IMG/VR virus record: IMGVR_UViG_3300005582_000090
Location: 1 to 25,685 of that record
DNA length: 25,685 bases
Origin: a virus
Strand: one strand, 5' to 3'
Shown here piece after piece: positions 5,143-24,319 of this stretch. The translations under genes and the position numbers were made by a program. The notes under the pieces were generated by a model. The model was not told the DNA's origin and did not search any database. It was given only the letters and a program-made list of their open reading frames with translations. Positions within the stretch are counted from its first letter, which is position 1. Every line of letters starts with the position of its first letter.

Positions 5143-5151
5143 AAGACATCT

Positions 5152-6122: not shown

Positions 6123-6123
6123 T

Positions 6124-7347
6124 ATGGCATTCGTTGCAACAGCTACAGCCGTTGGCTTTGGAAGCGCTATTCTTGGAACCGCTATTATTGGCGCTGGCGT
6201 TGGTGGTTTATATAGTGCTGTTACTGGTGACGGAGATATTCTTAACAGTATGCTGACAGGAGCGCTGATTGGTGGTGCTGGCGCTGGCTTAATGACAGCT
6301 GCGGGAGTTGGAGGGTTTGGTGCGGCTGCTACTGCTGCTGAAACTGCTGCTGCAGCTGGAGCTACTGGATTAGGATCTGCTGGACCTGCAGCAACCGCTG
6401 TTAATATTCCTACCGCAGCTCAAATGGCTTCAATGACTCCTACACAAGTTGCTGCAATGACTCCAGCGCAATTAAATGCTGTAGCAGCAAGTCAAGGAGT
6501 TCTTGCTGAAGGTGCAGCCACCCTTCCTGGAGCCAATATGTTTGTTGCGCCTGAAATAATTACCCCAGATATTATGGCTGCATCAGGTAAGATTGCGGGT
6601 ACTGTACCTCCTACTATGTCAAACATGAAAGCACTTGGATATGGTTTAGCTGGAACATCAGCTATGCAGCTATTAGGCGGAAGAGGTAAAGGAGCACAAG
6701 GTCCCGCATCTGATCCTGGCATGATCCGCCCGTTTGAGTACACATCAACACCAAATGAGCCAACAGGCAATTACCCAGCTCCTTACGCTACAGCATCGTA
6801 TGATGAATCAGGTAATCCAGTTATGGATACTAGAGAACGTAATCACTTTGATCAGAAATTTACTGCATTAGAACCATACTCAGCCAAAATTGGCACTGTA
6901 AATCCAAATTTGCCGTTGCCTGCAAGTAGCTCAGTAAACGCTGCCAATGGCGGGATTATGCGTAACTATGATGATGAAATGGGCAGGGACGATACATCTT
7001 TAGACCAAGGCAATATGCAAAAAGGATTATTTGGGTTAGGTTATGCCCATGGTGGCGCAGCCAATCTAGGAGATTATTCAGATGGTGGTCGCTTACTTAG
7101 AGGTCCAGGCGATGGCGTATCTGACAGCATTCCAGCTACGATTGCCAATAAACAGCCTGCTAGATTAGCGGACGGAGAGTTTGTCATACCAGCTCGAATT
7201 GTGTCTGAATTAGGCAATGGTTCTACCGATGCTGGTGCTAAACGTTTATATGCCATGATGGATCGTATTCAAGCTGGTCGTAAAAAAACCATAGGTAAAA
7301 AGAATGTTGCAAAGGATACAAAGGCTAAAAAGCACTTATTAGCATAA
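6124..7347 (+). CDS. Gly/Ala-rich virion protein, probable internal (ejection) protein
   Basis: A 407-residue protein. The N-terminal 75 residues are strongly hydrophobic and Gly/Ala-rich (FGSAILGTAIIGAGVGGLY, LTGALIGGAGAGLMTAAG), like membrane-inserting parts of ejection proteins. The middle holds a degenerate tandem (QMASMTPTQVAAMTPAQLNA). The C-terminus (about 320-388) carries a block seen in many phage virion proteins: GGRLLRGPGDGVSDSIPATI, PARLADGEFVIPARIVSELG and AGAKRLYAMMDRI, then a Lys-rich tail. NGGIM, HGGAA and DGGRL repeat the GG-turn motif of its neighbours. AAGGG about 8 nt upstream of the ATG is a good ribosome-binding site. Expected site: inside the capsid or tail, delivered into the host envelope with the DNA. 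The role is inferred from composition and context. Confidence 0.65.
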   Translation: MAFVATATAVGFGSAILGTAIIGAGVGGLYSAVTGDGDILNSMLTGALIGGAGAGLMTAAGVGGFGAAATAAETAAAAGATGLGSAGPAATAVNIPTAAQMASMTPTQVAAMTPAQLNAVAASQGVLAEGAATLPGANMFVAPEIITPDIMAASGKIAGTVPPTMSNMKALGYGLAGTSAMQLLGGRGKGAQGPASDPGMIRPFEYTSTPNEPTGNYPAPYATASYDESGNPVMDTRERNHFDQKFTALEPYSAKIGTVNPNLPLPASSSVNAANGGIMRNYDDEMGRDDTSLDQGNMQKGLFGLGYAHGGAANLGDYSDGGRLLRGPGDGVSDSIPATIANKQPARLADGEFVIPARIVSELGNGSTDAGAKRLYAMMDRIQAGRKKTIGKKNVAKDTKAKKHLLA

Positions 7348-7782
7348 ATGTTACAGAGCGCCCAATCATTTGAAGCCAAGCAGATTGCAGCAGATATATT
7401 GCTTAGAGAAGTTGGCGTTCAACCTTGTAGCGATTTGCAAGCCTTGTTTTGGGTAGATAAAGAAAATAAAATTGAATGGATAGTAGGTTATACAGCTTTT
7501 ATAGGAAAAACATGCCAGATGCACGTTGTTAATTTAAGCGATACAGCTTATTTACCAAAGAAACTTGTGCGTGGTGCGTTTGACTATCCGTTTAATTATT
7601 GTGGCTTAGAAAAAGTTTTTGGTCTTGTAGACAGTAATAATGTTAGAGCTATGGAATACGATCAAAAGTTAGGATTTAAAGAGGCCATACGGTTTGCAGA
7701 AATGCACGATAGTGGTGGCGATCTTGTAGTTTTTGAAATGAATAAAGCTGACTGTAGATGGATTAAGGAACGCAAAAAATGA
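7348..7782 (+). CDS. GNAT-family N-acetyltransferase
   Basis: A 144-residue protein with recognisable GNAT features: strand IEWIVGYTAF (residues 42-51), strand QMHVVNLSD, helix LPKKLVRGAFDYPF, then LEKVFGLVDSNNVRAMEYDQ with the conserved Asn pair N97-N98 and Y104, and KLGFKEAIRF (G109-F110) before the last strand GGDLVVFEM. Phage GNATs of this shape often lie among virion genes; the substrate is unknown and could be host or virion protein amino groups, tRNA or a small molecule. The ATG follows the preceding stop directly with no visible Shine-Dalgarno, so translation probably depends on re-initiation. It overlaps the next gene by 4 nt. Confidence 0.85.
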   Translation: MLQSAQSFEAKQIAADILLREVGVQPCSDLQALFWVDKENKIEWIVGYTAFIGKTCQMHVVNLSDTAYLPKKLVRGAFDYPFNYCGLEKVFGLVDSNNVRAMEYDQKLGFKEAIRFAEMHDSGGDLVVFEMNKADCRWIKERKK

Positions 7783-9947
7783 GATATACACTAGATTCAA
7801 TGTTGCCTGAACAGGCTTTCTCCCCACGATTAGGTCGTGGTTTTGGCGGTGGTGGAATGACGCTTGAAGGCGGCAAAGGCGGTGGCGGTGGACAAGCTCC
7901 TCCTTCACAGCAAACCGTTACCAATACCTCTATTCCTGAGTATGCTGCCCCGTATGTACAAACCATGCTTGGCAAGACTGAGGCATTAACAGACATTAAT
8001 CAGAACCCATACCAAGCATATGGCGGTCAACGGATTGCACCATTTAATGCAAACCAAGAACAAGCATTTCAAAACACTCTTAATCAACAAACAGCAGGTC
8101 AGCTAGGAACAGGTAGTGCCATGGCTGGATTAGCTGGTTTAGGATCATTAGGAGCAGGAGCAGATTATCGCAACATGGCAACTAATCCAAATGCAACTGC
8201 TGCGTACATGTCTCCGTACATGCAAAATGTTGTAGATACACAAAAGGATGAAGCATTCCGTGATGCGCAGATACGAAATCTTGGATCTAATCTAGGGTCT
8301 GCCCGTCAAGGGACGTATGGTGGTGCTAGACAACTGTTAGGTGAGCAAGAAAGAAATCGTAATCTTCAACAGCAGTTGGGTAATATTCAAGCTACAGGAT
8401 CACAGAACGCATTTAATGCAGCGCAACAAGCACAACAGTTTGGCACAACCGCTGGTCTACAAGGCTATGGACAAGCTATTCAAGGTGCAAGTACATTAGG
8501 TCAACTTGGATCTACTCAGTTTGGACAACAGCAAGCAATTAATCAAGGCATCCAAAACGTTGGAAACGTACAACAAGCACAAGCCCAACAAGGTCTAGAT
8601 TTAGGTTATCAGGACTTTCTTAAGCAGCGTAATTACCCGTATCAGCAATTGGCATTTATGTCCGATATGACTCGTGGTATTCCGTTATCTCAATCTTCCC
8701 AGCAAATATATACCGCACCTCCAAGTGCCACATCTCAATTAGGCGGTCTAGGTATGTCTGCCCTAGGTATCTACGGCATGTCTGGTGGTTTCAGGCCAGG
8801 CGCTAAAGAAGGCGGATTGATGTCTGCTGCAGCATACAAAGAAGGCGGTTTAACATATGCAGGTGGTGGTGATATCTCTTCGATGTCTACCGAGCAACTA
8901 ACAGAAATGTTAAACAACCCATCTACCGATCCTATGTTGGCAGCGGAAATTGAAAAGTTACTAATGTTGCACCGTAGAATGGCTATGAACCCACAGACAG
9001 ATGAGATTATGGCTCCTGCTCTAGGGCGTTCAGGTATTGCCTCTATTAGTACTGGCGACATGGTTCCAGAAGAAATGGCTGGAGGCGGTATTATTGCTTT
9101 TGCTGATAGAGGGATGGTAAATCTAAAAGATCAACTATCAGACGATACAAAAGCCCGTAGAAAATTGTATGAAGATAGATTAGTCCAATCTTTTAACAAC
9201 ATGGCAACTAACGAGGCATTTAAAGAATCAAAAGCAACAGAAGCTGAAACTCGTGCTGCAATAACTGAAAGCAAGCAAATGAATCCATATGCAGCTTTGA
9301 CCAATGCTGGGTTTAAAATGATGAAAGGAAGTGATGACCCATCAAAACGTGGAAACTTTCTTTCTGAATTAGGTGAAGCTGGTGAAGCAGGACTAGGCAC
9401 TTACGCTAAAGGCAAAGCAAATGAAACAGATTTAGCTAAACAACTATCAGGTCAGATTGAAAAGAGAGAGGCTGGCAAATACGCTAGAGATTCTATAATG
9501 CACAACGCACTACAGTCTGCCGTCAATCAGATGGATACCAAAGAACTTGGCGCTATTAATGCTCGTATTACTGCAGGAAATACAGCAGCCACTAAAGAAT
9601 CTAACTTGTACTTAAAATCCATTAGCTTGTACAAAGACACTTTAGATGATGTCAAAACTAGTATGATCCAAAAGGATAAGTTTAGTCGTATGTACCGTGA
9701 TGATCCAGCGGCATTTAATAAAGCTGCTGAACAAGAAGCTAAGGCCATTCTTGGTCCAAAATTTTTGGAGTCTATTGGCAAAACATCAGCTATGACACCC
9801 AATGCTAATCCTGCGGCTCCTGTAGGTAAAGCATCTGCCCCAGTATTTGTAACAATTCCAGCTAAAGATGGTAAGCCAGCCCAGCAGGTTCAGTTTGCAT
9901 CAAAAGAACAGGCTGACGAATTTAAAAAGGCAGCTGGATTAAAATGA
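7779..9947 (+). CDS. Large Gln/Gly-rich virion protein, probable ejection protein
   Basis: A 722-residue protein. It opens with a Gly tract (RGFGGGGMTLEGGKGGGGGQ), followed by PYQAYGGQRIAPFNANQEQAF, a segment recurrent in environmental podovirus structural proteins. Residues about 90-320 are Gln/Asn/Ala-rich helix without charged clusters (QQQLGNIQATGSQNAFNAAQ), typical of long rod-like or internal virion proteins. Then come AKEGGLMSAAAYKEGGLTY and EEMAGGGIIAFADRG, repeated GG-turn motifs, and a charged helical C-terminal part ending in a Pro/Ala linker and a short PVFVTIPAKDGKPAQQVQF beta module. AAGGA 9 nt before the ATG supports the start. It directly precedes the giant gene, so the two products may be packaged together. 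Function inferred. Confidence 0.65.
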   Translation: MRYTLDSMLPEQAFSPRLGRGFGGGGMTLEGGKGGGGGQAPPSQQTVTNTSIPEYAAPYVQTMLGKTEALTDINQNPYQAYGGQRIAPFNANQEQAFQNTLNQQTAGQLGTGSAMAGLAGLGSLGAGADYRNMATNPNATAAYMSPYMQNVVDTQKDEAFRDAQIRNLGSNLGSARQGTYGGARQLLGEQERNRNLQQQLGNIQATGSQNAFNAAQQAQQFGTTAGLQGYGQAIQGASTLGQLGSTQFGQQQAINQGIQNVGNVQQAQAQQGLDLGYQDFLKQRNYPYQQLAFMSDMTRGIPLSQSSQQIYTAPPSATSQLGGLGMSALGIYGMSGGFRPGAKEGGLMSAAAYKEGGLTYAGGGDISSMSTEQLTEMLNNPSTDPMLAAEIEKLLMLHRRMAMNPQTDEIMAPALGRSGIASISTGDMVPEEMAGGGIIAFADRGMVNLKDQLSDDTKARRKLYEDRLVQSFNNMATNEAFKESKATEAETRAAITESKQMNPYAALTNAGFKMMKGSDDPSKRGNFLSELGEAGEAGLGTYAKGKANETDLAKQLSGQIEKREAGKYARDSIMHNALQSAVNQMDTKELGAINARITAGNTAATKESNLYLKSISLYKDTLDDVKTSMIQKDKFSRMYRDDPAAFNKAAEQEAKAILGPKFLESIGKTSAMTPNANPAAPVGKASAPVFVTIPAKDGKPAQQVQFASKEQADEFKKAAGLK

Positions 9948-9982
9948 TAGTAAAATAAATTAAGTTCAAAGCAGTAACTAAA

Positions 9983-9987
9983 TAGGA
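9983..9987 (+). promoter_or_regulatory. Ribosome-binding site deciding the giant gene's start
   Basis: TAGGA lies 9 nt before ATG 9997 and 6 nt before an in-frame TTG at 9994. Either could be used, but ATG is preferred, giving 4641 residues. The 49-nt gap before it (9948-9996) is one of the longest in the late region and shows no convincing promoter. Confidence 0.55.
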
Positions 9988-9996
9988 CACAATTTG

Positions 9997-12900
9997 ATGG
10001 CAGATATAGATAAGCTGATAGCTCAGTACGGTGGAAGTATTGTTCCAGAGCCAAAGCCAAGCCCATCAAATGAATTAGCCGATTTAGCTGCACAATTTGG
10101 CGGAACTCTAGTTTCCCCAGATACTCCTACCACTCCAGGAGGTTACGGAGCAGGTACTTTTGCCAAAGACATGGGCAAATTAACTGCTGCTGGAGCTGTT
10201 CCAGGAATATTGGGCGCACCAGAAGCAATTGAAGCTGCTGCTGTCCAACAATCAAAATCTACTTTTGCAGCCCCTTCTGAGATTTTAAGTTACCTATCAA
10301 GCCCAGATAAACTGGCTAACAAATTTGTTACGTCATTAGGCTTTAAGCCTATCTTTGGCGAAGAAAGCAAAGGACTTGTACCAGAAGAGCTTTTGAAAAA
10401 GCAAGAGATGTTGTTAGACGAGGTAAGAGCTAAAGGCAAGTCACAAAACTTAAAAGACTTATCCGCATACGGACAAAAGCTAGGTCGAGACATCACAGAG
10501 ACAGCATCTCCTGAAATACAGTTAGCAATGGCTAACTTTGTCCCTACTGGCTCATTGTCTGATATTGCCAATGGCAGAATAGAAAATTTAAGTTTTGGTG
10601 CTAAACCTACATTTTTAGGTTTTGCTGGTCAGTTTGCTAATATCTTTGGTTCTGTAGCTCCTGGAATGATTGGGACAATTCTTACCAAAGATCCTAGGTA
10701 CATGCAAGCCTTTGGATTTGGTCAGGCTGGATCAGAGGGCGTAAGCAATGCCCGTGAATACATACAAAGCCTAGATGACACTCAGCTGGCTGCTAACAGC
10801 CCTTATTTTAAAGATCTTTTAAAAACTGGTTACGATCCAAAAACAGCTCGGTTAATGACCGAGGAAAAAGCGGTAGACACTGCTGCAACTGCACAAGCTA
10901 TTGTGGGAGCAGTAGGCGGTAACTTTACTGCTAAATTAATTACAGGTAAGTTTGACGATGCATTACTATCATCAGTAAAAAACAGAGCACTAAACATCGT
11001 TGCAAGAACAAGCAAGGGTGTAGTTATAGGCGGTGCAGAAGAAGGTCTTCAGGAAATGGCTGAAGGCATTGCCAGTGATTTAGGTATTGACAAGACAGTT
11101 GTAAAAGAGATTGGTTCTGATGCTTTTGCTAATTTTGTATTAGGCGCTATTGGTGGTGGTGGAGTAGGCGGTGTAAAAGGTTTACTGACTAAAGATAAGA
11201 CAGTTACCAAAAAACCCACTCCTGATGAGCTATTTGCAGATCTTATTGGAACAGGTGTTCCACCATCAGTTCCTCCGACTGCACCACCATCTAACAGCCC
11301 AGTTGTTAGTACTATGCAAGTAAATGTTGGCGGCAATATTGGCACAAAAGTTACCAGACAAGATGGCAGTGTAGATATCGATGGGTTGCAGGTTGTGCCT
11401 CCAGCTGCCATGGTAGAGGAAGATGATGTCGCTCTATCATCCATAGTTCCTCCTAGCGTAGTAGCTCCAGTAGCTGCTATGGTATCTACAGTAGGCTTAG
11501 ACCCAGAAACTGCCCAAAGAGTAGATGCTCTTAAAGCCGAACTAAAGCTAATTGAAAGCAGGAGAGCAGACCCTAATAACATTCCTAACGAGTACGAGCT
11601 AGAGTTTTTTGATGAAAGAGAAGCCGAACTTGCTAAGGAAATTACTGATTTAGTAAGTCCTAAAGCTCCAGAAGCTCCTGCCGAGCCAACAACGGCAGAA
11701 AAGCTAGACAACGCTTTTATGTGGAGAAAAGACGGTGTTGATATTCCAATACAAGTTGTTGCTGAAAAATTAGGCACTAATGAAAATGGTCAAAGAGAAA
11801 TTTTGGCTTTGGTTGATGGTCAAGAACAAAGTATTCCAATTGATGAAGTTGTAAGAAATCCTGATTTTGTAGCTCCAGTATCAGAGGAAGTAGTTACTGA
11901 GCCAGAGGTAGCTCCAATAGCAGAAGAAGCGGCTACTGAACCAGAGGTTGCGCCAACTGAGCCAGAAGCTGTTACTACAACTGGAGGAGCAGCACTACCA
12001 ACGCCCACTATAGAAGAAAAGATTGCTGATAGTACAGCTCGCATGGAAGAGCAATTTAAGGCTGCTGCTGAAGCTATTGGAAACGATCAAAAGCTATTAG
12101 AAAAAGAATTAAAAGAAGCAAAATCTGTTTTAACTAATAAATATCAAGAACAGTTTAAAAATTCTACTTTTGATTTTGAAAAGAAACGGTTAACTTCTGC
12201 CGATGGCAAACTGGCTTTGCAGTGGGAAAACGATGGAAAAACTAATCGAGGTAGTGTAAAAGTAGTTCCAATTGAACCTAGCAAAGAAGAGCAGATTGCT
12301 ATTAACAAAGCTCGTCAGGAAGAGCAAAGAGCTGCTGCAGAAGCTGAGAAAAAAGCTAAAGAGGAAGCGCCTAAGGAAGAAGAGAAGCCTACTGGTGGGC
12401 CATCTATTGGTGGACCAGCTATTACTGGCGGACCATCTACACCTAAAAAGGTAGCACCAACGGAAGAAGAGAAGCAAGCTAAAGAAGAAGAGAAGAAGGC
12501 TAGAGAAGAAGAAAAGAAAGCCAAAGAAGAAGAAAAAGCTCAAAAAGAAGAGCAAAAAAAGAAGATAGCTGAATTAAATACAAACCCAATGAAGATTGCT
12601 ATGGAAACTGGCAATGCGGATGCGGTTGCAACACTTTTATACGGTCATGCTGTTGATGAAAGTTTACATCCAGTTATTTTCCCAGAAGAAATGTTGTTGC
12701 GTATTCCAGTTGAATTAAGTTTGGTAAGTCAAATGGAAGATGAATTAGTTGCAAACAAATTCCGTATTACTGACAGAGCAGTTCCAGCAACAACAGATAG
12801 TCCAGACTATGTAGGTCCTGAAAGAATTACCATATCTGCGTTATATAACCCAGAAAAAGTAAGCGTACAGGGTGGTGGTGCTGATTTTTTTGCCAACCGT

Positions 12901-15900
12901 AAGGGACAAATTACTGCTGCCCCATTACCAAAAGATGCCACAGAAAAACAAAAAGATGCGCTAGTAACTGAACTGTTAGATTTAGCAAACCCTAAAAAAT
13001 TATTAGACATTCAATCGAATCCAAATAATACATTTGGCGCAATGATGTTTAAAGAGGGGTTAGTATCTAAAATAAAAACGCCTGGAGACTATCTTTTTGA
13101 TTTAATCAAGTTAACTTCAAGAGCTGGCGGACAATTTAATACATACATTTCTCCTAAAGCGGGAAATCGCCAAGCCATTAAATTAGTTATAGACGATGGT
13201 CAAGAAACATTAGTTAGAAAATTATTAGTAGATTATGTAACGTCTTTACAAACCTTACAAGCTGTACTAAATGAGCATTCTAGTGTTACCCCTTTATACG
13301 ATGCATTAATGGCAAAATATATAAAGGATACGAATGCAGGCAGCATACCTGATATATATACACCAGAGGGTGTAGGTTTAAGAATTCAAATTGACAATGC
13401 ACAACTTAATCAGTTTATTCCTAGATTATTGTCTTTGTTTGGCGCTGATGAAAACTCTACCGATCAAACAAACAGAATTGTTAAAAAAGACGCAGAAACT
13501 CCACCAGAGTTAGGCAACATTATCAGACGTGGTATGCGTGACCATCGACAGGGACGAGATGTTGATGTACAAGACTTTTTACAAACATTTAAATTTTTAC
13601 CAGGCGGTATTGATTTTGGTAATTGGGTCAATCAGTCAGAACGTACAGCGCATTTAAACGCTATTTACGATGCGATGTATGACCTAGCAGATATTTCTGG
13701 TATAGCACCAGAAATGCTAGGCTTAAATGAAAAGTTAAAACTAGCTGTAGGTGCGCAGGGTCGTGGTGGCAAGACCGCAGCTCATTTTGTTTCTGGATAC
13801 AATGAAATTAACTTAACAAAAACAAAAGGTGATGGAACATTAGCGCATGAATGGCAACACGCATTAGATTTTAATTTAAGAGTAGTTCCTAACGGAAAAG
13901 TTTTAATGTCCGATACAGCATCTACTTTGCAAAGAACGATCAATGTAGAAAGAGTAGAAAGTAACTTACGGTCAATCTTAACTAATACAGCAAATAGTGA
14001 AAACAACCGTAATACGCCACCCAAAAAAGCATTCTTTGATGCTATTTCAAATAGTCGATACGGTGAAGCCGACATCTACCGTAGTTCGTATACTGATACA
14101 CAATTTTATAAAGATGCTTTAGAACTAGATAGAAGTAGAGAAAAACCATATTGGAGCACTCAAGTAGAGCTGTTATCTAGATCTTTTGAATCTTTAATAT
14201 TTGATCTAGCAAAAGGTGGATCTCCATATTTAGTTGGACCAACAGTAGCTGATGGTTATGTAACTAAAAGGAATGGTTATGCTGGCACTACTTATCCAGC
14301 TGGTAAAGAACGCCCTAAGATCAATGAAGTATATCAACAGATGTTGGATCAAATTGATCCCAAGACTTTAGAGATAAAGACATACAAATTAGAAAATAAA
14401 ATTATTGAGGTTGAAGAGTTAGGATATGTAGTAGTTGATCAGTATTACCTTGATCGTGGTCGAATGGGTGGTTTAAATTGGTTTAAGACAGAAGAAGAAG
14501 CAAAACAAGCCAAAGAACAACTTGATGGCAAAGAAGAAATATTAACGCCACGGCTAATGCAAATTAGCAAGGTTAATCAAAGTATCATTAACATGGCACA
14601 GCGTATTGATGCCATCATGGAAGAGATGGGCTTGTTTAAGTGGCCCGAAATTAAAAATGGCTCGATGGCTGAGTCAATGTTCTACCACATGCGTCAAGGA
14701 TGGTGGCCTAAAACCAACCGTGAACTAGCTGAATATGGCATTAAAGCGTATCTGCAAACGCCTGAGCTATTGGGATTCAACCCTGCTAAAGATCAAAGAG
14801 AAATAGACAACTACAAAATTGCTGATTTTGAAGGTGATCGAGTTAAATTAAAGCAAACTCAAGAAGACTTTGAGGCAGCAGCTGTACGGTTTATCAGCCA
14901 AGTCATTACCGATATGAGAGCAGAAGGCTCTGATACCAAAGCTATCTATGACCATATTGTCGGCTTGTACGAAACTCAACCTTCATTAGATGTTAAATCA
15001 GTATTAAGCGTATCTAACAACGCTTACTCTACCCCATTGCCGATTGCATACCTTGCTGGAATGTTATCCCGTGTTAAATCTACTACAACAGTATTAGATC
15101 CAACTGGCGGTAATGGAATGTTGGTAGTTACGGCTAATCCTAAAAACGTAACAACAATCGAATTAGACCAGCATCGTGCTAATAATTTGAAGTTGATGCA
15201 GATGGGGGATGTAATTGAGGGGGACGCATTAGTAAAAATAAAAGATATCCAAGCTCAAAAAGTAGATGTAGTTCTTGCCAACCCTCCATTCGGATCACTT
15301 CCATCGCCTGTAGATGTTAAGTCTTGGACAGGACAAAATTACAAGATTGGTACGCTAGATCAACTCATTGCTGCCGAGTCATTGCGAACAATGGCAAATG
15401 ACGGTAGAGCAGTTTTAATACTTGAGTCTCATACAAAACCAAACACTATTACATCAACAGATAGAGTGTTTTTGAATTGGCTATACAGCAATTACAATGT
15501 TGCCGACCATTATGAAATTGCTGGAAATTTATATCGTAAACAAGGTGCGTCTTTTCCGTTGCGTGTCTTAGTTATTGCTGGAAGAAATCAAACGGACAAT
15601 GTTTTCCCAAATGATTTTGTTGTTAATAGATTAACGTCATTTGATGAATTATGGAGCAGATATGTTCAAACCAGTGATCGTAGCGAAAAAGTCGTGGTGG
15701 GTACCAGAAAACAAAGGGCAACTACTGGCGGTGCAGATAGACCAAGCGGAGCAGTACCAACAGGCGATAATCTCCAAGATGGCGAACCTAGCGGAGGAGT
15801 GGGGGGGACTGGAGAGGGCGTTGGCATCGGCGAACAATTATCTCCGACAGGAGGGGTCAACGTACCTCCCAAAACCAGCGGACGTGGAACAGCTGGTGGA

Positions 15901-18900
15901 ATTCGTGATACAGAACAACAGCAGGATAGCGGAGATGGTCAACGAGGGGGACCCAGAAGTAGCGAATCCAGCACCGACAGAGGAAGCGATATATTACGTG
16001 AAGAATCAGGAGATCAACTGGGAGGACTTTCTGACTTAGATTTAGATGCGCTGTTTGACGATATTAATAAATCTTTGCAAGAAAAAGAAACAAAAGTCAA
16101 ACGGGAAAAACAAACTGGTGGGCCTAAAAAAACAAAAGAAGTTAAAGAACCAAGTGTTAAACGTGAACCTAAAACGCCTTCTGTTGAAATGTCACCAGAA
16201 ATGCAAATTTTAGTTGAAAAATTAAGAGCTGCTTTAAATGGAAAAGCACCACAAATAACAGAAGAAGTTACAAAAGAAAACAGTCAAGAACGTCTAGATA
16301 AACAAGCTGACGAAGCTATGGGCCGTATTGCCCAAAATTCTAAAAATACTAGTAATGATCCTGATAGTGGACTTTATTCTAGAAAAGATGATCAAGAATA
16401 TGCTAACGTAAAACCAATCATTCAAGAAATATGGGACTTAGCTGGGAAAACAACAAGTGATTTTAGAGAACGGGTTAAATATATTGTTGATGAATTAGTT
16501 CCCTTGTTAGGGAAAGCAATAGTAGCTCATGTTCAAGCATTTATTAATGGATTAAAAACTACAGTAAAAAGAAGACCTAAAAATCAAACTCCAGTACAAG
16601 GTGAGCCAATTGATACAGAATCAAGAGTTGTTTATTTAGGTAAGTCTAGATTTGCAAGCGATGGTATTTATTTGCCTCGTGCTCAATCACAACATGCGTA
16701 CACAGCTTTAGAAAAGTTAGAAGCTCAAGTTGGCAACATAGATGAATTTGTTACTAAAGAGCTAGGCTATTCATCTATTGAGCAAATGGCAGAAGGTCTT
16801 GCTGGTTATCAAATTGATGCATTAGGATTAGCAATCCAAGCTAACAAACTTGGAAAAGGTTTCATTATTGGAGATGATACTGGCGTAGGTAAAGGTAGAA
16901 CAGCTGCCGCCATGATTGTCTGGGCAAAGAAACAAGGGAAGATTCCTATTTTTGTTTCTCTTAACGATTCTTTATATACTGATATGTATAGAGATTTAAT
17001 TAACATTGGTCATGGCAATATTAAAATAGGAATGACAAATGGTGGTACAAAAATAATTAAAGATATTGGCGAAGGACAAACTGAAACAGTATTTAAAAAT
17101 AAAGTAGGCGATGATACAAAATTAACCAGCTATATATCAAAAAATAAAAAACTACCACCTGGAATAGATGTTTTATTTACAAATTATTCGCAGTTAAGTG
17201 GCGGACCAGGATCTGCAGCAAGACAGGAAGCAGTAGCATCTTTAGTTGCAAGTGGAGATGCTGTATTAGTTATGGATGAAGCCCATAACGCTGCTGGTAC
17301 GCCAACTGATAAAGACTCAATGGGTCAAAATGCTTTTTTTATGTCTTTGTTAACAGGTCAAAATTTATTAGGCAAAGGTGTAGATGCTCCTGAAGATTGG
17401 AAACCACCACCAACTGTTTATTTATCTGCTACGTTTGCAAAACGTCCAGATAATATGCCGTTGTATATTCATACAAATTTACGTTACGCTGCAGACACTC
17501 CAGAAGATTTAACAGCCTTGTTTGGTAAAGGCGTTAAAACAGATGTGTTGCAACAAGTGTCTTCAGAGATGTTGGTAGAGTCTGGCTCAATGATACGCAG
17601 AGAAAGATCTTATGAAGGCGTAACAATGGATTTTGTTATTGATGACAAGAACACTGCCAGAGATACCAGAGAAGTTGATAAGGTTACAGAAATACTAAGA
17701 TCTTTAGTCAATGCAGATCGAGCTTTAAAAGAATGGATAAAAACTCCTGAGGGTATGGAAGCAGTAATTAAACTAGGCCCTCCAGGATCGTATCTTGCGA
17801 GCGCAGATATGTTCAAACCATCGGGAGGAACAAAAGCATTTAAAGAAGTAAAAGGCACTCCATTTACTTCTGTTGTGCATAATTACATAGGAACCTTATT
17901 ACTTTCAACTAAAACTCAAACTGCTATAGACATGGTTGTTGAAAAACTTAACAACAATGAAAAAGTAGTTGTTGGATTGCAAAGTACCAATGGCAAAGCA
18001 TTAGAGGATTTTGTTAAACAAAATAATATTAAAAAAGGCGATGAAATTCCTGATTTTGGATGGCAAACATTAATTAGACGTGCTGTATCTTCCACCAAAA
18101 AAGTTACTTTAAAATCTTCCTTTGATGAATCTGATGAAGTGGTATTTATCCCTAACGAGCTAATGCCAAAAAATATCCGAGCTGGATATGATAACGTTGA
18201 TAATGCTTTAGAAAATTTTCAATCTGATTTACCTCCTGCACCAATTGATTTTATACGAACAGAGTTAGAACAAAAATATGTATGGACTATTGATGGCAAA
18301 GTTCAAGTTGGTGATACACCACCTAAAGGTGTAAAAGCAAGACACTTAGTTGTAAAAGAAATTACAGGTAGAAAAAACGGAATAGATTATTCTGGAGATA
18401 CACCAAAATATATAACTTTAGATAACCCTAGTCGTACAAGCATGATTTCGTCATACCAAAATGGCGAGGAATCTAAAGAAGGTCCAATTGATGTATTAAT
18501 CATTAACTCTGCAGGAGCAACGGGAATCTCGTTACATGCCTCAGTAGATGCATTTGATCAACGCCCACGGCATATGATTGTTTTACAGCCACACGGGGAT
18601 ATTAGTGTTTTTATTCAATTATTAGGAAGAATACATAGAACAGGTCAAGTTGAATGGCCTTCATTCACTATGTTAGCAACTGGAATACCAGCTGAAAGAC
18701 GCATCTTAGCCATGTTGCGTAAGAAGTTGTCTAGCTTAAAATCCAATACTTCTGGCGGATCTAGCAGTACAAAGGTTGACGGAGTAGATTTTATTAATAT
18801 GTACGGAGATGTAGCGACAGCCGAATATTTGAATGAACATCCAGACATACAAGCATTTTTAGATACAAAAGAATATTCAGACCCTGACGATGCAGCTGGC

Positions 18901-21900
18901 TCTGAATTGGCTCATACAGCCTCAGGTACAGCAGGGTTGCTATCTTCGGTAGACCAAAAAGAATTCTTTGATTCGATTGAAGCTAGTTATATAGCGGCAA
19001 TAGATCTAAGAAATGCTACAGGAACTAATGCATTAGAAAGAAGGGTTTTGCCGTTAGAAGCAGAAATAATCAAAGAAAACCTAATTGAAGAAGGTTTAGA
19101 TAGTTCCAATCCATTCTTAACTGATGTGGTAATGGCACAGTTTAACGTGGATATTATTGGCTCGATACCTACTGTACAAAACATAAAAGATGACATTAGC
19201 CTTGCGTTGAACGGTAGAACGGCTCAGGACGTTGTTAATGAAATAGAGACAGAGTTAAACAGCGTTTACATTGAAGTAAGAAACCAAATTGTTCTTAAAC
19301 AGCAAAAAATTGATGAGGATATAAAAAGTCCAACGGCTACTGAAAAAGATATAGAAGGACTAAACAAACAAAAAACAGCGTTAGATAATCAATTTTCTTC
19401 ATTAAATGAACGTAAAGATAAAACGCTATTGGCATTGAGTAATACCTTTGCGATTGGAAATGGTTTTGACTCTTTTATAGTTAACAGTGTTCCAGCCTCT
19501 GCTGTAGTTGTAGGAATAAAAGTAGATAAAACACGAATAGGTAAATCCAAGACTGGTAATCCTTATTCACCATCAAACTTCCAAATCATTATCAAACGAA
19601 ATATTCCTGAAGGTAGAGTATCTGTACCTTTATCAACGTTAGAAGGTACATCAATTGACCGATCTAACCCTTCTAGGAATCCTCCTTTAGAAGATTTTTT
19701 TGCATTAAAGTCGGTTACTGGCGGAAGAACAAATAGATATGTTGCTCTAGGAAACATACTAAAAGCTGCTCAATTATTTGGTCCTAGTGGTGGTGAAATT
19801 GCTAAATTTACTTTAAAGAATACTAAAGAAGCAATATCTGGCGTAGTCATGCCAGCCAAGTATGTACCAGTGTCAATTAGCGAACAACCAGTTCGTTTAA
19901 GAAATCAAGAATCAGCAGTGCAATATTTGTTAGCCGTTTGGGATTCCTTATTACAGAAAAAGTATGAGGATACTCAAATGGAGACATACAAAAATTTAAG
20001 TAATAGTCTTCAACCTTTAATGCTTCCTAATTTGCCAAAAGTTTCTGGAAACATGGGCAATGTTTTATTGCGTGGTTTAAAACAAGCATGGCAGTTGCGT
20101 ATTGAAACTTATAGACCAACTAGTTTTAAAGTATCTTTGATGGGAGATGCTCCAAAGAAAGTTGTAAACGACATTAAAAATTTAATCCCTGGCGAATTTA
20201 AAAAATCAAAAGGCACGTATGAGATGGAAAGCGGTGTTTCACTAACCGACCCAGAAAAAATAATAGCGTTAGTCAAGTTCTTACATAAAAACTTTCCAGC
20301 TACAGTAGAGGCAGATAACGCTACGTTTGCTCGTGAGGTAATGAAGGTTGAATTTGATAATAGTGAAAGTAAAAAAGGTTTAGCATCACGAGGTCCTGCG
20401 GAAGGTGGACAAACAGTTGAAGCTGTTGAAGCACAAGTTGTTCCTATAAAAGGAATTACCGTTAAGGTTCTTCAATCCGTAGATGAATTGCCAGACAATA
20501 CTGCGCCAGCAGACGTAGAGGGAATGTGGTTATCTGGCAGAACTGTTTACTTAATTGCAGATAACCTACCAAATGCAAAAAGAGTACAGGAAGTATTAGC
20601 GCATGAGGCTGTTGGTCACGCTCTGTTAGAAGAGATGTTGGGACCAAAACTAATGGCAGAATTGGTTAGAAATGTTCAAAATCTAGAAAAGACTTCTAAG
20701 ATTGTTAAAGAAATAGCTGCCAAAGTAGATCGCACACAACCTGGCTTGTCACCAGAGCGTAGGGCAAAAGAAATTGTTGCAAACATGGCAGAACGTGGTA
20801 TGTCCAAAATAGGGCTAATCCAGCGTGTTATTCAAGCCATTCGCAATTGGTTAAGAAGCCAAGGGTATACGATTAACTTCTCTGATGGCGACATTATTGA
20901 ACTATTAAACTTTGCCGAAAACTACTTTGATAGTAAAGGCAAAGCCAGCTTTCCATCTTTAACACCTGCACCAGCAAAGACTCAAGTAAAGACTCAAGCA
21001 GAGATTAACAGAGAGCGTCAGCAACAAAAGCTGAAAAATAGGGTTGGATATTTTAGTAGAGATGCTGAAGATAAAGATACTCAACCTGGCGTAGAAGACT
21101 TTGACAAGCAATTTGCTGAAGACGGCTTTAATAACACCCCAATAAAGTCATCCTCTACAGTCAAAGACACCTTGCTTGGTGGTGCAAAACAGGCAAAACA
21201 AATTTACGACAACACTGTAGATTCTCCAGCTTTAGCTTATAAAGCTATGAGTGGTAAGTTACTCCGTGGCATTACTTATGTTCGCAATAAGAACGTATTC
21301 TTTGGTGCTGGTCTTGAAATGGCTGAAAGAATCGTTCAGAAATCGCAAGGATTATCTGGCAATCTGCGTGATGGCTACGGAAAAGCCATGGCATCTATTG
21401 CCGTTACTAATGCTCTTAAGGGAGGTAACTTATCTGTAGAGGTTATTAGACTGGGATCTTTGGCATTTAATCAATCAGGACAGATGTTCCAAGCAATAAA
21501 ACGTCCGTTCTCTATGGCTAATATAGTAATAGCAAAATCAAAACTGATGGCTCGTGTAGGTGAGCAAAGAGCCACCAACATGGTCAATATGTTCTTTGAG
21601 GCTAAACGCTCTGCCAGCATTATGGAAGAGTACGAAGCGCTTGAAAAGGAAGTAGCCCGTTTAGATAAAGAGCGCCTTGCACCAGACTTGGCGCCAGATC
21701 AGCTTAATAAAATTCTTAATGATCTTTTGGATGCTCAACAGTCTTTAAAGCAGCTTGGTATTGCTAAGAAGAAGGTTCGCATGACAGATGTGCAGATTCA
21801 GGCATATAGCGATCTGGAGAAAAAGAATCCAGAGCTGCGTGAGATGCTGGACAACTGGACTAAAGTCAATGCAAACATGATTGACATGATGCTGTTTGGC

Positions 21901-23922
21901 AAGATTATCAGTAAGAAACGTGCTGAACGGCTTAAAGGTATTAAGGATTATGTTCCTTGGTATCGTATCCAAGACGATATGCAAGATGTCCATGACCAGA
22001 CTTCTATGGGCGGTGTCCGCAGCAATACCAATATCTCTCAAGAGAAGAAGTTCAAAGATACCGAAGTCGATATGGATATTGATGACATTGTGGATAACAT
22101 GTTCCACAATGTTATGACTATTACTCGCAACGTTATGAGAAACCATGCCGCTAATCGTGTGGTTGATTCCTTTGGAACTCGCATTAAAGGAAAAATAGCG
22201 GTCTTTCCAAAAGAGGGGCCTACCAAAAGTGGTGCTGTTCGCTTTAACATCTTGCGCAATGGTCGCAGAGTAATCGTAGAGATTAAAGATCCATTGGTTG
22301 CCGAAGCGGTAACTGGCATGGAAGAAATTGCCATTCCTGGTATGGAAATGCTTGGTGCGTTAGCAAACGGCTTACGCAGGGGTATTACGCTATGGCCTGA
22401 ATTCCAACTAAAACAGTTATTTATGGATGCCCCAACAGCTGCGCTGGTCTCTGGGGTAAAAAACCCAACTAAGCTCTGGGGTGAGGTATTTGTTGGTTTT
22501 GCCAAGGCAGTAAAAGGCGGTGATCCAGTAGTAGAACTTTTACAGTCCTTTGGAATAGGTGGTTATCAGGCATACAACCGAACTCCAGAAATGGAACTAA
22601 AACAACGAATTGGTTTGTTAGAAAACAATGTTTTATCTAAAGTTTTAAGCAAATTAGATCAAATTGGCGATGCTTCAGACATGGCACAACGTGTAGCTAT
22701 ATACAAACGTGTTTTAACTGAGAGTGTATCTAAAGAATTTCCTAACGGCGATCAAATGCAAGCCCTTGTAGCCGCCAACAATATTATTGACTTCAAAAAA
22801 CGTGGTTCAGGTAGATTAGCCCAAGTCCTGACTAAGACTGTATCTTTTATGAACGCCTACGCCCAGCAGATTGATGTGCTGGCAATGACTATCGTAGGTT
22901 CTGGCTACACTGGAAAAGATAAAGCAGCAGCCTTGGCACAGCTAGGTAAGACGGCAGCGCTGTTCTCTTTCTACGTCATGCTCTATTCATGGGCAGTCGG
23001 CGGAGAAGATGACTATGAAGAGCTAGATGACCAGACTAAACTGCGTAATATCTATGTTCCTAAAGCACTGACCCAATATATTGGCATGGATAACGGGTTA
23101 TTGTTCCCAATGCACACCTCGGCTAGTTTTATATTTAAATCCCTTCCAGAGATGACTTATAACGTAGTAGTAAAAGAGGGAACAAAAGACGAAATTGACG
23201 GAACTCGCCTTCGTAAAGTTCTTGCAGAAGCTGCTATGGATTCATTCTTGGGTCCTAATCCTGTTCCAACTGGCGCTAAACCATTGATAGAAATTGGTTT
23301 AAATCGCAGCTTCTTTACTGGCAGGGAAGTTACTCCAAAGAATCTAGAAGGACTTGATGCTGCAGAGCAATATAACGCTAGTACCTCAGAGCTAGGCAAG
23401 GCTCTTAGCGCTTTGACTGGCAATCCATTCAATGAGAGCCGTGCTTTGAACCCAATCGAGGCGGATCATTTGGTTCGCAGCTTATTTGGAACTACGGGCG
23501 CAGCTGTCCAGTGGATGAGTAATTTGTTCTCTGGTGATCGTCCAACACCAAGATCAAGGGATAATCCTTTATATGGCAGCTTTATTGCAGCGGAAGTAGG
23601 TCGTGCGCCAGAAGACTTGTTCTATTCCTTTAAAGATAAGGTAGACAGCAAGTACAAGACTTACACCAAACTACTTGAAGAAGCTAAGTTTGAACAGGCT
23701 GATAAATACTTTGATCGTTATACAAAAGAGATTGATGCTCATGAATACATCGCTTCTATGGATAGTTCTTTGGCACAAATTAATAGAGAAATCCGTAGTT
23801 TGGGTAGAACTAGCCAAGGTATGACTGCAGATCAACGTAGAGCAGAGATTACTGAGTTACAGCGTCTAAAAAACAATATTCTGGATGAAGTGATCCTGAT
23901 GCGTAAGGAAGCTGGACTGTAA
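9997..23922 (+). CDS. Giant polyvalent protein: virion N-terminus, LPD1-like, DNA methyltransferase, DarB/Strawberry-notch-like helicase, peptidase-like site, virion-type C-terminus
   Basis: One uninterrupted 4641-codon ORF. Residues 1-400 hold paired AQ[YF]GG motifs and Gly/Ala hydrophobic stretches like ejection proteins. Residues 400-870 are low-complexity (TEPEVAP repeats, a Lys/Glu helix). Residues 1190-1298 are LPD1-like, with H1284-E-x-x-H1288 and D1291. Residues 1675-1855 form an N6-adenine-type methyltransferase (motif I at D1701, N1762-PPF). Residues 1889-2008 are a Gly/Ser linker. Residues 2270-2920 form an SF2 helicase (K2299, D2427-EAH, S2477-AT, motif VI at 2874-2884), followed by a Strawberry-notch-type extension. 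A second site is H3536-E-x-x-x-H3541. The last 800 residues (FMDAPTAALVSG, a hydrophobic stretch near YVMLYSWAVGG) resemble the LPD38 region of polyvalent proteins. P1 DarB, a packaged antirestriction protein, is the functional model. Domain calls are by motif; combined function is inference. Confidence 0.9.
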   Translation: MADIDKLIAQYGGSIVPEPKPSPSNELADLAAQFGGTLVSPDTPTTPGGYGAGTFAKDMGKLTAAGAVPGILGAPEAIEAAAVQQSKSTFAAPSEILSYLSSPDKLANKFVTSLGFKPIFGEESKGLVPEELLKKQEMLLDEVRAKGKSQNLKDLSAYGQKLGRDITETASPEIQLAMANFVPTGSLSDIANGRIENLSFGAKPTFLGFAGQFANIFGSVAPGMIGTILTKDPRYMQAFGFGQAGSEGVSNAREYIQSLDDTQLAANSPYFKDLLKTGYDPKTARLMTEEKAVDTAATAQAIVGAVGGNFTAKLITGKFDDALLSSVKNRALNIVARTSKGVVIGGAEEGLQEMAEGIASDLGIDKTVVKEIGSDAFANFVLGAIGGGGVGGVKGLLTKDKTVTKKPTPDELFADLIGTGVPPSVPPTAPPSNSPVVSTMQVNVGGNIGTKVTRQDGSVDIDGLQVVPPAAMVEEDDVALSSIVPPSVVAPVAAMVSTVGLDPETAQRVDALKAELKLIESRRADPNNIPNEYELEFFDEREAELAKEITDLVSPKAPEAPAEPTTAEKLDNAFMWRKDGVDIPIQVVAEKLGTNENGQREILALVDGQEQSIPIDEVVRNPDFVAPVSEEVVTEPEVAPIAEEAATEPEVAPTEPEAVTTTGGAALPTPTIEEKIADSTARMEEQFKAAAEAIGNDQKLLEKELKEAKSVLTNKYQEQFKNSTFDFEKKRLTSADGKLALQWENDGKTNRGSVKVVPIEPSKEEQIAINKARQEEQRAAAEAEKKAKEEAPKEEEKPTGGPSIGGPAITGGPSTPKKVAPTEEEKQAKEEEKKAREEEKKAKEEEKAQKEEQKKKIAELNTNPMKIAMETGNADAVATLLYGHAVDESLHPVIFPEEMLLRIPVELSLVSQMEDELVANKFRITDRAVPATTDSPDYVGPERITISALYNPEKVSVQGGGADFFANRKGQITAAPLPKDATEKQKDALVTELLDLANPKKLLDIQSNPNNTFGAMMFKEGLVSKIKTPGDYLFDLIKLTSRAGGQFNTYISPKAGNRQAIKLVIDDGQETLVRKLLVDYVTSLQTLQAVLNEHSSVTPLYDALMAKYIKDTNAGSIPDIYTPEGVGLRIQIDNAQLNQFIPRLLSLFGADENSTDQTNRIVKKDAETPPELGNIIRRGMRDHRQGRDVDVQDFLQTFKFLPGGIDFGNWVNQSERTAHLNAIYDAMYDLADISGIAPEMLGLNEKLKLAVGAQGRGGKTAAHFVSGYNEINLTKTKGDGTLAHEWQHALDFNLRVVPNGKVLMSDTASTLQRTINVERVESNLRSILTNTANSENNRNTPPKKAFFDAISNSRYGEADIYRSSYTDTQFYKDALELDRSREKPYWSTQVELLSRSFESLIFDLAKGGSPYLVGPTVADGYVTKRNGYAGTTYPAGKERPKINEVYQQMLDQIDPKTLEIKTYKLENKIIEVEELGYVVVDQYYLDRGRMGGLNWFKTEEEAKQAKEQLDGKEEILTPRLMQISKVNQSIINMAQRIDAIMEEMGLFKWPEIKNGSMAESMFYHMRQGWWPKTNRELAEYGIKAYLQTPELLGFNPAKDQREIDNYKIADFEGDRVKLKQTQEDFEAAAVRFISQVITDMRAEGSDTKAIYDHIVGLYETQPSLDVKSVLSVSNNAYSTPLPIAYLAGMLSRVKSTTTVLDPTGGNGMLVVTANPKNVTTIELDQHRANNLKLMQMGDVIEGDALVKIKDIQAQKVDVVLANPPFGSLPSPVDVKSWTGQNYKIGTLDQLIAAESLRTMANDGRAVLILESHTKPNTITSTDRVFLNWLYSNYNVADHYEIAGNLYRKQGASFPLRVLVIAGRNQTDNVFPNDFVVNRLTSFDELWSRYVQTSDRSEKVVVGTRKQRATTGGADRPSGAVPTGDNLQDGEPSGGVGGTGEGVGIGEQLSPTGGVNVPPKTSGRGTAGGIRDTEQQQDSGDGQRGGPRSSESSTDRGSDILREESGDQLGGLSDLDLDALFDDINKSLQEKETKVKREKQTGGPKKTKEVKEPSVKREPKTPSVEMSPEMQILVEKLRAALNGKAPQITEEVTKENSQERLDKQADEAMGRIAQNSKNTSNDPDSGLYSRKDDQEYANVKPIIQEIWDLAGKTTSDFRERVKYIVDELVPLLGKAIVAHVQAFINGLKTTVKRRPKNQTPVQGEPIDTESRVVYLGKSRFASDGIYLPRAQSQHAYTALEKLEAQVGNIDEFVTKELGYSSIEQMAEGLAGYQIDALGLAIQANKLGKGFIIGDDTGVGKGRTAAAMIVWAKKQGKIPIFVSLNDSLYTDMYRDLINIGHGNIKIGMTNGGTKIIKDIGEGQTETVFKNKVGDDTKLTSYISKNKKLPPGIDVLFTNYSQLSGGPGSAARQEAVASLVASGDAVLVMDEAHNAAGTPTDKDSMGQNAFFMSLLTGQNLLGKGVDAPEDWKPPPTVYLSATFAKRPDNMPLYIHTNLRYAADTPEDLTALFGKGVKTDVLQQVSSEMLVESGSMIRRERSYEGVTMDFVIDDKNTARDTREVDKVTEILRSLVNADRALKEWIKTPEGMEAVIKLGPPGSYLASADMFKPSGGTKAFKEVKGTPFTSVVHNYIGTLLLSTKTQTAIDMVVEKLNNNEKVVVGLQSTNGKALEDFVKQNNIKKGDEIPDFGWQTLIRRAVSSTKKVTLKSSFDESDEVVFIPNELMPKNIRAGYDNVDNALENFQSDLPPAPIDFIRTELEQKYVWTIDGKVQVGDTPPKGVKARHLVVKEITGRKNGIDYSGDTPKYITLDNPSRTSMISSYQNGEESKEGPIDVLIINSAGATGISLHASVDAFDQRPRHMIVLQPHGDISVFIQLLGRIHRTGQVEWPSFTMLATGIPAERRILAMLRKKLSSLKSNTSGGSSSTKVDGVDFINMYGDVATAEYLNEHPDIQAFLDTKEYSDPDDAAGSELAHTASGTAGLLSSVDQKEFFDSIEASYIAAIDLRNATGTNALERRVLPLEAEIIKENLIEEGLDSSNPFLTDVVMAQFNVDIIGSIPTVQNIKDDISLALNGRTAQDVVNEIETELNSVYIEVRNQIVLKQQKIDEDIKSPTATEKDIEGLNKQKTALDNQFSSLNERKDKTLLALSNTFAIGNGFDSFIVNSVPASAVVVGIKVDKTRIGKSKTGNPYSPSNFQIIIKRNIPEGRVSVPLSTLEGTSIDRSNPSRNPPLEDFFALKSVTGGRTNRYVALGNILKAAQLFGPSGGEIAKFTLKNTKEAISGVVMPAKYVPVSISEQPVRLRNQESAVQYLLAVWDSLLQKKYEDTQMETYKNLSNSLQPLMLPNLPKVSGNMGNVLLRGLKQAWQLRIETYRPTSFKVSLMGDAPKKVVNDIKNLIPGEFKKSKGTYEMESGVSLTDPEKIIALVKFLHKNFPATVEADNATFAREVMKVEFDNSESKKGLASRGPAEGGQTVEAVEAQVVPIKGITVKVLQSVDELPDNTAPADVEGMWLSGRTVYLIADNLPNAKRVQEVLAHEAVGHALLEEMLGPKLMAELVRNVQNLEKTSKIVKEIAAKVDRTQPGLSPERRAKEIVANMAERGMSKIGLIQRVIQAIRNWLRSQGYTINFSDGDIIELLNFAENYFDSKGKASFPSLTPAPAKTQVKTQAEINRERQQQKLKNRVGYFSRDAEDKDTQPGVEDFDKQFAEDGFNNTPIKSSSTVKDTLLGGAKQAKQIYDNTVDSPALAYKAMSGKLLRGITYVRNKNVFFGAGLEMAERIVQKSQGLSGNLRDGYGKAMASIAVTNALKGGNLSVEVIRLGSLAFNQSGQMFQAIKRPFSMANIVIAKSKLMARVGEQRATNMVNMFFEAKRSASIMEEYEALEKEVARLDKERLAPDLAPDQLNKILNDLLDAQQSLKQLGIAKKKVRMTDVQIQAYSDLEKKNPELREMLDNWTKVNANMIDMMLFGKIISKKRAERLKGIKDYVPWYRIQDDMQDVHDQTSMGGVRSNTNISQEKKFKDTEVDMDIDDIVDNMFHNVMTITRNVMRNHAANRVVDSFGTRIKGKIAVFPKEGPTKSGAVRFNILRNGRRVIVEIKDPLVAEAVTGMEEIAIPGMEMLGALANGLRRGITLWPEFQLKQLFMDAPTAALVSGVKNPTKLWGEVFVGFAKAVKGGDPVVELLQSFGIGGYQAYNRTPEMELKQRIGLLENNVLSKVLSKLDQIGDASDMAQRVAIYKRVLTESVSKEFPNGDQMQALVAANNIIDFKKRGSGRLAQVLTKTVSFMNAYAQQIDVLAMTIVGSGYTGKDKAAALAQLGKTAALFSFYVMLYSWAVGGEDDYEELDDQTKLRNIYVPKALTQYIGMDNGLLFPMHTSASFIFKSLPEMTYNVVVKEGTKDEIDGTRLRKVLAEAAMDSFLGPNPVPTGAKPLIEIGLNRSFFTGREVTPKNLEGLDAAEQYNASTSELGKALSALTGNPFNESRALNPIEADHLVRSLFGTTGAAVQWMSNLFSGDRPTPRSRDNPLYGSFIAAEVGRAPEDLFYSFKDKVDSKYKTYTKLLEEAKFEQADKYFDRYTKEIDAHEYIASMDSSLAQINREIRSLGRTSQGMTADQRRAEITELQRLKNNILDEVILMRKEAGL
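10015..10113 (+). repeat. Paired AQ-[YF]-GG motif at the giant protein's N-terminus
   Basis: Residues 7-16 (LIAQYGGSIV) and 30-39 (LAAQFGGTLV) are two copies of one 10-residue motif, 6 of 10 identical and the rest conservative, spaced by a Pro/Ser linker. The position at the extreme N-terminus of a probable virion protein suggests a docking or packaging element. That role is inference. Confidence 0.6.
11896..11970 (+). repeat. TEPEVAP tandem repeat in giant protein
   Basis: TEPEVAP (residues 634-640), TEPEVAP (647-653) and TEPEA (654-658) are imperfect acidic Pro-rich repeats. They mark a flexible linker between the N-terminal region and the charged helix. Confidence 0.7.
12463..12573 (+). 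repeat. Lys/Glu-rich helix repeat in giant protein
   Basis: Residues from 823 repeat units of the type EEEK-K/Q-A-K/R about every 8 residues, with GA-rich DNA to match. It should form a long charged single helix or coiled coil, acting as a rigid spacer before the enzymatic domains. The Phe/Leu-rich ORFs on the opposite strand here are shadows of it. Confidence 0.75.
15653..15656 (+). promoter_or_regulatory. Internal Shine-Dalgarno for the overlapping ORF
   Basis: GGAG ends 5 nt before ATG 15662, which is out of frame with the giant gene. Spacing and sequence are as good as those of accepted starts in this window. Confidence 0.35.
15662..16039 (+). CDS. Candidate overprinted gene inside the giant gene, +1 frame, 125 aa
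   Basis: Starting at ATG 15662 with GGAG 5 nt upstream, this frame stays open for 125 codons inside the giant gene. Its product reads like a real folded protein: MFKPVIVAKKSWWVPENKGQ, helices such as IDQAEQYQQAIISKMANLAEE and VEQLVEFVIQNNSRIAEMV, and an acidic end NQEINWEDFLT, with three Trp positions and no low complexity. Over the same bases the giant protein is Gly/Ser/Thr/Arg-rich and probably disordered, and local GC is about 52-63 % in the lines examined. Against it: 12 of 14 Ala codons are GCG, unlike the phage's GCT/GCA usage, as expected if they arise from AGC-GGA or AGC-GAT in the main frame. It could be an overprinted gene, a remnant of a frameshifted domain, or chance. Confidence 0.3.
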   Translation: MFKPVIVAKKSWWVPENKGQLLAVQIDQAEQYQQAIISKMANLAEEWGGLERALASANNYLRQEGSTYLPKPADVEQLVEFVIQNNSRIAEMVNEGDPEVANPAPTEEAIYYVKNQEINWEDFLT

Positions 23923-23980: not shown

Positions 23981-24319
23981 TCATTTTAGCTCAATGACCA
24001 CCATTCCAAGCACCTCTTCAGCAAATTTAAAGGTGGGTAGGAAGCGTTTATCGTTGACCTTGAGGGCATCTGCCAGCCCATCTAGCCCTGCCTTAATAGA
24101 AGCCACCATATTGTCTGCATCCCTATGCCGCTTATCAGGGGGGTAAAAGGTGATTTCTACGGGTATTTTGCCCTCTCCTGGGGCTGAGAGCTTTGCCTCT
24201 AGGGTTAAAGCCCAGCAAGCGGTGCGGTATTCCTTCTTCTTTTTAGCCTTTTTAGACCAATGGAGCGTGGAATTGGGGGATAGTTCTTTGGGAGGCCAAG
24301 GTAGTTTTACGGTATTCAT
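23981..24319 (-). CDS. rusA: RusA-type Holliday junction resolvase
   Basis: A 112-residue protein close in length to E. coli RusA (120). It opens LPWPPKELSPNSTLHWSKKAK, a substrate-binding start typical of the family. The catalytic block is DKRHRDADNMVASIKAGLDGL, with D67, D69, N70 and K76, then D90 in VNDKRF; this matches RusA D70, D72, K76 and D91. The enzyme is expected to cut four-way junctions during phage recombination or before packaging. It is the only - strand gene, transcribed towards the giant gene and away from the recombination operon with which it would work. No Shine-Dalgarno precedes the ATG; see the promoter entry for a likely leaderless mRNA. Confidence 0.93.
   Translation of the reverse strand: MNTVKLPWPPKELSPNSTLHWSKKAKKKKEYRTACWALTLEAKLSAPGEGKIPVEITFYPPDKRHRDADNMVASIKAGLDGLADALKVNDKRFLPTFKFAEEVLGMVVIELK

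Follow-up and report, generated by a model that had tools for sequence, protein, structure and literature searches.

The window studied here, i.e., the whole 25,685-base stretch of DNA that makes up one virus record, comes from a freshwater virus of bacteria and holds a reading frame for 4,641 amino acids (aa). This locus raises the question of whether so long a frame encodes a single maintained protein, to which class such a protein belongs, and what else the same bases might encode. We found one giant protein of an already known class; what is new here is its exchangeable-cargo architecture and a gene nested within it in another frame, above all the nested gene.

Coding capacity and domains of the giant protein

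An earlier note on this DNA had described a single long open reading frame (ORF) without a stop and had named methyltransferase (MTase), helicase and two zincin motifs in it. The ORF was confirmed and is under purifying selection, and most complete relatives carry a single ORF of approx. 4,540-4,690 aa. All of the named motifs were located, i.e., HEWQH at aa 1284, DPTGGNG at 1701, NPPF at 1762, GVGKG at 2296, DEAH at 2427, SAT at 2477, GRIHRTGQ at 2877 and HEAVGH at 3536, and they are invariant or nearly so across 18 relatives, except in L025, which carries another type of cargo, and in L014. The dN/dS values of 0.05-0.24 in the folded modules, as compared to 0.4-0.75 in the linkers, indicate that the giant is one maintained protein. 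Its chain joins several unrelated enzymatic domains (MTase, SF2 helicase and two zincin motifs): Pfam matches above the cut-off were found for LPD1 (40.8 bits) and LPD38 (77.3 bits; cut-off 27 for both) as well as for AAA_34 and Helicase_C_4, a pair that marks the helicase as Strawberry notch and not SNF2, and a PHROGs DNA methyltransferase match covers approx. aa 1673-1820. A Pfam match to POTRA2_Toc75 was below the cut-off and was set aside. The locations of all features are collected in Table 1.

Table 1. Features of the window, with positions counted from its first base
Feature	Location	Strand	Remarks
Upstream ejection-type gene (phrog_4287, DNA ejection protein), 722 aa	7779..9947	+	PHROGs
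Giant polyvalent protein gene	9997..23922	+	4,641 aa; uninterrupted ORF, kept in relatives
N-terminal end, Gly/Ala-rich, lineage-specific	9997..11196	+	
Short N-terminal motif, two copies (LIAQYGGSIV, aa 7-16; LAAQFGGTLV, aa 30-39)	10015..10113	+	Candidate capsid-targeting tag
Zincin 1 (HEWQHALD) with LPD1, aa 1181-1460	13537..14376	+	Pfam, PHROGs, motif
Adenine-type DNA methyltransferase domain, aa 1660-1940 (DPTGGNG, NPPF)	14974..15816	+	PHROGs, motifs
Shine-Dalgarno-like GGAG, 5 nt before nested ATG	15653..15656	+	Invariant, 17 aligned relatives
Nested overlapping gene, +1 frame, 125 aa acidic protein (MFKPVIVAKKSWW...NWEDFLT)	15662..16039	+	Alternative ATG 15644
Gly/Ser/Glu-rich main-frame linker of giant, aa 1941-2110	15817..16326	+	
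Strawberry-notch SF2 helicase/translocase, aa 2200-2960 (AAA_34 + Helicase_C_4)	16594..18876	+	Pfam, motifs
Zincin 2 (HEAVGH), aa 3461-3640	20377..20916	+	Motif, selection
C-terminal end with LPD38 (aa 4337-4525), virion-lineage-specific	20974..23919	+	Pfam

In L014 and L021, which have identical giants, MTase motif IV reads HPPA in place of NPPF, and the helicase motifs, the zincin motifs and the nested ORF are intact. Judged by this motif, the MTase is probably inactive in an otherwise conserved giant, which suggests that methylation may not be what matters in every case.

Searches by sequence for relatives of solved structure returned none for the MTase-helicase, the C-terminal end or the nested protein. 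AlphaFold models of the two ends of the giant, built from shallow alignments, were of low confidence (pLDDT 54 and 49), and a fold search of the PDB with the low-confidence model of the C-terminal end gave zero matches. Among the genome contigs searched, no relative of the C-terminal end or of the nested protein was found.

Relationship to known polyvalent proteins

By its domains and gene context the giant is a DarB-like phage polyvalent protein, a class that is already known (Iyer et al. 2017, PMC5512222); this assignment, which had been proposed in the earlier note, holds on the strength of the LPD domains and of the late, ejection-type context. In the excerpted text of Iyer et al. (PMC5512222), the proteins described share with the giant the domain set, the phage-only LPD38 and the late-gene context, and both zincin variants of the giant (HExxH with an Asp three residues on, and HExxxH) occur there as well; the same excerpts mention neither fixed delivery ends that enclose an exchanged centre nor a nested gene. 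P1 DarB, given in the excerpts as a protein of approx. 250 kDa of the SNF2 family, resembles the giant, when compared by description and not by sequence, as an MTase-helicase protein; DarB is packaged in the head.

The size of the giant and the number of its modules, which had been called unusual, are not. Bcep22-like podoviruses encode DarB-like proteins of 4,515-4,667 aa, BcepIL02 gp70 (4,667 aa) combines SLT, MTase, SNF2, LPD3, zincin and LPD38 domains, and BS-TP4 gp3 has 5,391 aa. The earlier reading is therefore partly supported, i.e., mostly right as to the kind of protein, overstated as to its novelty, and it had overlooked the nested +1 gene. BcepIL02 gp70 and JC1 gp69 (4,515 aa) resemble the giant in length (4.5-4.7 kaa), in being encoded by the terminal gene of the virion module of podovirus genomes of 61-63 kb, and in the order MTase-helicase-zincin-LPD38. 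However, the helicase of BcepIL02 gp70 is of the SNF2 type and is accompanied by LPD3 and an N-terminal SLT domain, whereas that of the window's giant is of the Strawberry-notch type; the latter giant also has an additional N-terminal zincin with LPD1, and a profile search found no match to an SLT domain in it. The C-terminal end of a group-B relative matches that of BcepIL02 gp70 with 26% identity over 1,055 aa (E=4e-54); for the window's own C-terminal end the match to gp70 is marginal (E ~0.05), with LPD38 present in both.

Separate evolution of the ends and the centre

A first scan for related loci yielded 25 loci. The centre of the giant (approx. aa 800-3640) is conserved in all of these except the L025 type, and conservation of the ends is confined to one virion lineage. 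Across 18 loci, similarity of the upstream ejection-type gene correlated with that of the C-terminal end (r=0.85) and of the N-terminal end (0.68) of the giant far more than with that of the centre (0.26). Moreover, within single pairs of relatives synonymous divergence was approx. 0.3 over most of the centre as compared to mostly 0.4-0.75 in the ends, which indicates that the two have separate histories, best explained by exchange; the junctions between end and centre recur near aa 3643-3700. Overall, the ends and the enzymatic centre of the giant evolve separately, and the centre also occurs in phages with other ends.

Four cargoes were found between the same ends. In addition to that of the window, these are a diverged MTase-Strawberry-notch cargo (L025, L031, L035 and L039; hereafter cargo ii), a cargo that lacks both MTase and helicase (L040) and a cargo with a weak GNAT match (L043). 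In the giant of L043 (positions 3968-10546), this weak GNAT match and a YkuD-like SFGCIN motif recognized by eye stand in place of the MTase-helicase cargo. Isolated phages that share this C-terminal end carry pyrophosphatase, ParB-like, MTase or helicase cargo. For phage polyvalent proteins, these observations amount to a cassette rule by which the ends go with the virion lineage and the centre with the cargo.

The first 60-70 residues of the giant contain two copies of a short motif (Table 1), which we regard as a candidate capsid-targeting signal by analogy with P1 DarB, where the N-terminal 30 residues suffice for capsid targeting. Paired short motifs are also present in this region in L002, L003, L006, L010, L025, L040, L043, L045 and L048, and vary by phage (QYGG, WEKDP, NPFAKYV, YVTDPELL, ELGG and SFLG types). 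In group B the pairing was not significant.

Genomic context and a possible role in the virion

The genes upstream of the giant encode a tail-fibre chaperone domain, a holin, an endolysin, a virion structural protein and, directly adjoining it, a DNA-ejection-type protein; an exonuclease is encoded downstream. In a complete relative (64,206 bases, with a 123-base terminal repeat) the gene order is terminase, portal, head, tail, ejection-type gene and giant. The giant thus sits among late virion genes, as is expected of a polyvalent protein. Just 3' of it, at 23984-24319, lies a small minus-strand ORF that is 75-96% identical in L006, L010 and L025.

We consider it likely that the locus closes a late operon of the podovirus type and that its product is a polyvalent protein packaged in the virion and injected, in which delivery ends specific to the lineage flank an antirestriction cargo that can be exchanged and that contains the nested +1 gene. 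By analogy with the class and its precedents, the ends would put the chain into the head together with the ejection proteins, and after entry the zincins may release the centre. The cargo, i.e., a zincin, a putative N6-adenine-type MTase, a Strawberry-notch translocase and a second zincin, would then protect the DNA: the translocase might travel along the incoming molecule and the MTase might mark it against restriction. Among the precedents is PTXU04 gp25, a protein with LPD38 and this C-terminal end that the phage requires to infect a laboratory strain.

Alternatively, the giant could remain unpackaged and act as an intracellular MTase-helicase in the infected cell, with ends that are mere solubility or membrane segments. 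MTase-Strawberry-notch pairs without virion ends are indeed common on plasmids (554 plasmid records), and PTXU04 gp25 was not among the proteins assigned to the virion bands of that phage. We nevertheless regard an intracellular giant as improbable: the gene is the last of a late operon and follows right after the ejection-type gene, with which its C-terminal end covaries, and JC1 gp69, a DarB-like protein of similar size, was detected with 51 unique peptides by mass spectrometry of CsCl-purified virions.

A nested gene in the linker between MTase and helicase

In the linker between the MTase and the helicase, synonymous divergence (pS) of the giant falls sharply, to 0.13 (aa 1921-2040), whereas the protein encoded in the main frame diverges. 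A previously unannotated +1 ORF occupies this region. Here the substitutions fall at main-frame position 1, which is position 3 of the nested frame, as compared to mainly main-frame position 3 elsewhere, and this phase flip was significant for single pairs of sequences (P = 3e-11 to 4e-9). When the giant was scanned for phase, the three lowest scan intervals were the three that span the nested ORF, and the site is the only place between aa 780 and 4600 with a phase flip. Nested-frame pN/pS, reported for 5 of 8 pairs, was 0.20-0.28 in pairs that include the sequence under study, with main-frame values of 2-5; for one group-B pair the values were 0.41 (nested) and 1.03 (main).

In every one of the 17 aligned relatives the +1 ORF (133-134 codons) is uninterrupted, with a length constant within one codon, and the nested ATG at 15662 and the GGAG before it are invariant among them; the distant relative L086 also keeps the ORF (39% identity). 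The length of the ORF was rejected as proof of a gene because synonymous shuffling attains it in some relatives (p up to 0.23). Taken together, the existence of a nested gene under coding selection is well supported, and we infer that it is translated. No published mention of it was found in the open-licence literature.

These shuffling results, along with a locally GC-richer linker, would also fit a +1 signal that is the footprint of an RNA structure or of a codon or GC constraint. We give this explanation hardly any weight, as substitutions concentrated at nested third positions and nested pN/pS values of 0.20-0.28 are not expected from an RNA element, the start codon and ribosome-binding site do not vary, and the version in Gloeobacter is annotated as a coding sequence (WP_230844304.1).

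A different objection is that ribosomes might enter the nested frame by a programmed +1 frameshift, so that the product would be an MTase ending in a different, acidic tail and not a separate protein. In the lineages examined, the ORF does begin just past the point where conservation of the MTase domain ends. However, in the phage family the likely ATG lies only 9 codons past a +1 stop, and in cargo ii the ATG, which has AGGAG upstream, directly follows the stop; this leaves little or no room for a shift and makes frameshifting very improbable.

Occurrence of nested frames in other lineages

Comparable nested ORFs are not confined to the family of the window. In cargo ii, a separate +1 ORF occupies the corresponding position, is preceded by a strong ribosome-binding site (AGGAG) and shows the same phase flip, which was also observed for a +1 ORF in the linker of Picosynechococcus plasmid genes; further +1 ORFs in this linker were found in Chroococcidiopsis, Leptolyngbya, Gloeobacter and phage BS-TP4. 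On plasmid pAQ6 of the laboratory strain Picosynechococcus PCC 7002, the nested ORF is located at approx. 100513-101013 of the complementary strand (NC_010480.1). Among the records examined, only the Gloeobacter one has the nested ORF annotated, as a separate hypothetical protein. The plasmid MTase-Strawberry-notch genes (Picosynechococcus pAQ6 and others) share the MTase-linker-helicase core of the giant at approx. 30% identity, and those of cyanobacteria have, as in the window, an acidic nested +1 ORF in the same linker; by contrast, no homology to the virion ends was seen in them, and their nested protein is not demonstrably homologous to that of the window. Several other MTase-Strawberry-notch genes (L052, L061 and L063) had no comparable nested ORF.

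Homology among the three nested families was not demonstrated (hhalign probability ~1%; HMM E=0.17-0.75). The cargo-ii nested ORFs were, on the other hand, the best non-member matches of the cyanobacterial nested HMM among approx. 2,000 other ORFs.

Properties and possible role of the nested product

The eight nested products compared are of 119-168 aa, with a pI of 4.3-4.6 and a net charge of about -9 to -14. In 8 of 8 the acidity exceeded that of a synonymous-shuffle null of the same linkers (p 0.0005-0.014), and acidity as a by-product of linker codons was rejected on these grounds. None of the Pfam, PHROG or PDB families convincingly matched the nested protein.

The nested product accompanies the MTase-helicase module in both phages and plasmids, and for this reason a partnership with the MTase-helicase is its most likely role; its charge suggests that it may bind a DNA-binding surface. 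Presumably translated from its own ribosome-binding site, the 125-residue acidic protein might, e.g., keep the DNA-binding surface of the MTase-helicase inactive in the producing cell.

It could instead be a free DNA mimic that, like Ocr or ArdA, inhibits host restriction enzymes. Its small size, its charge beyond the shuffle null and its location in an antirestriction-type gene agree with such a role. We consider a free mimic rather unlikely, since it was found only alongside the MTase-helicase module, also on plasmids, so that a partner role fits at least equally, and it has no sequence match to a known inhibitor.

With a partner of the MTase-helicase as the preferred reading, a broader generalization would be that MTase-Strawberry-notch modules of phages and plasmids commonly carry an overlooked nested +1 acidic protein of one ancient family, which works with the MTase-helicase as an inhibitor, immunity or DNA-mimic subunit and which phages carry within a swappable cargo cassette flanked by ends for virion delivery. 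We put this forward tentatively, at somewhat less than an even chance. Conserved in antirestriction-type modules of phages and plasmids alike, the nested gene matters more than the giant itself, and a protein that partners the MTase-helicase would be a missing piece in the control of these modules.

A further +1 ORF, of 139 codons, was noted in the MTase-helicase linker of an 18.5-kb strawberry-notch gene on a Thalassospira plasmid (L062).
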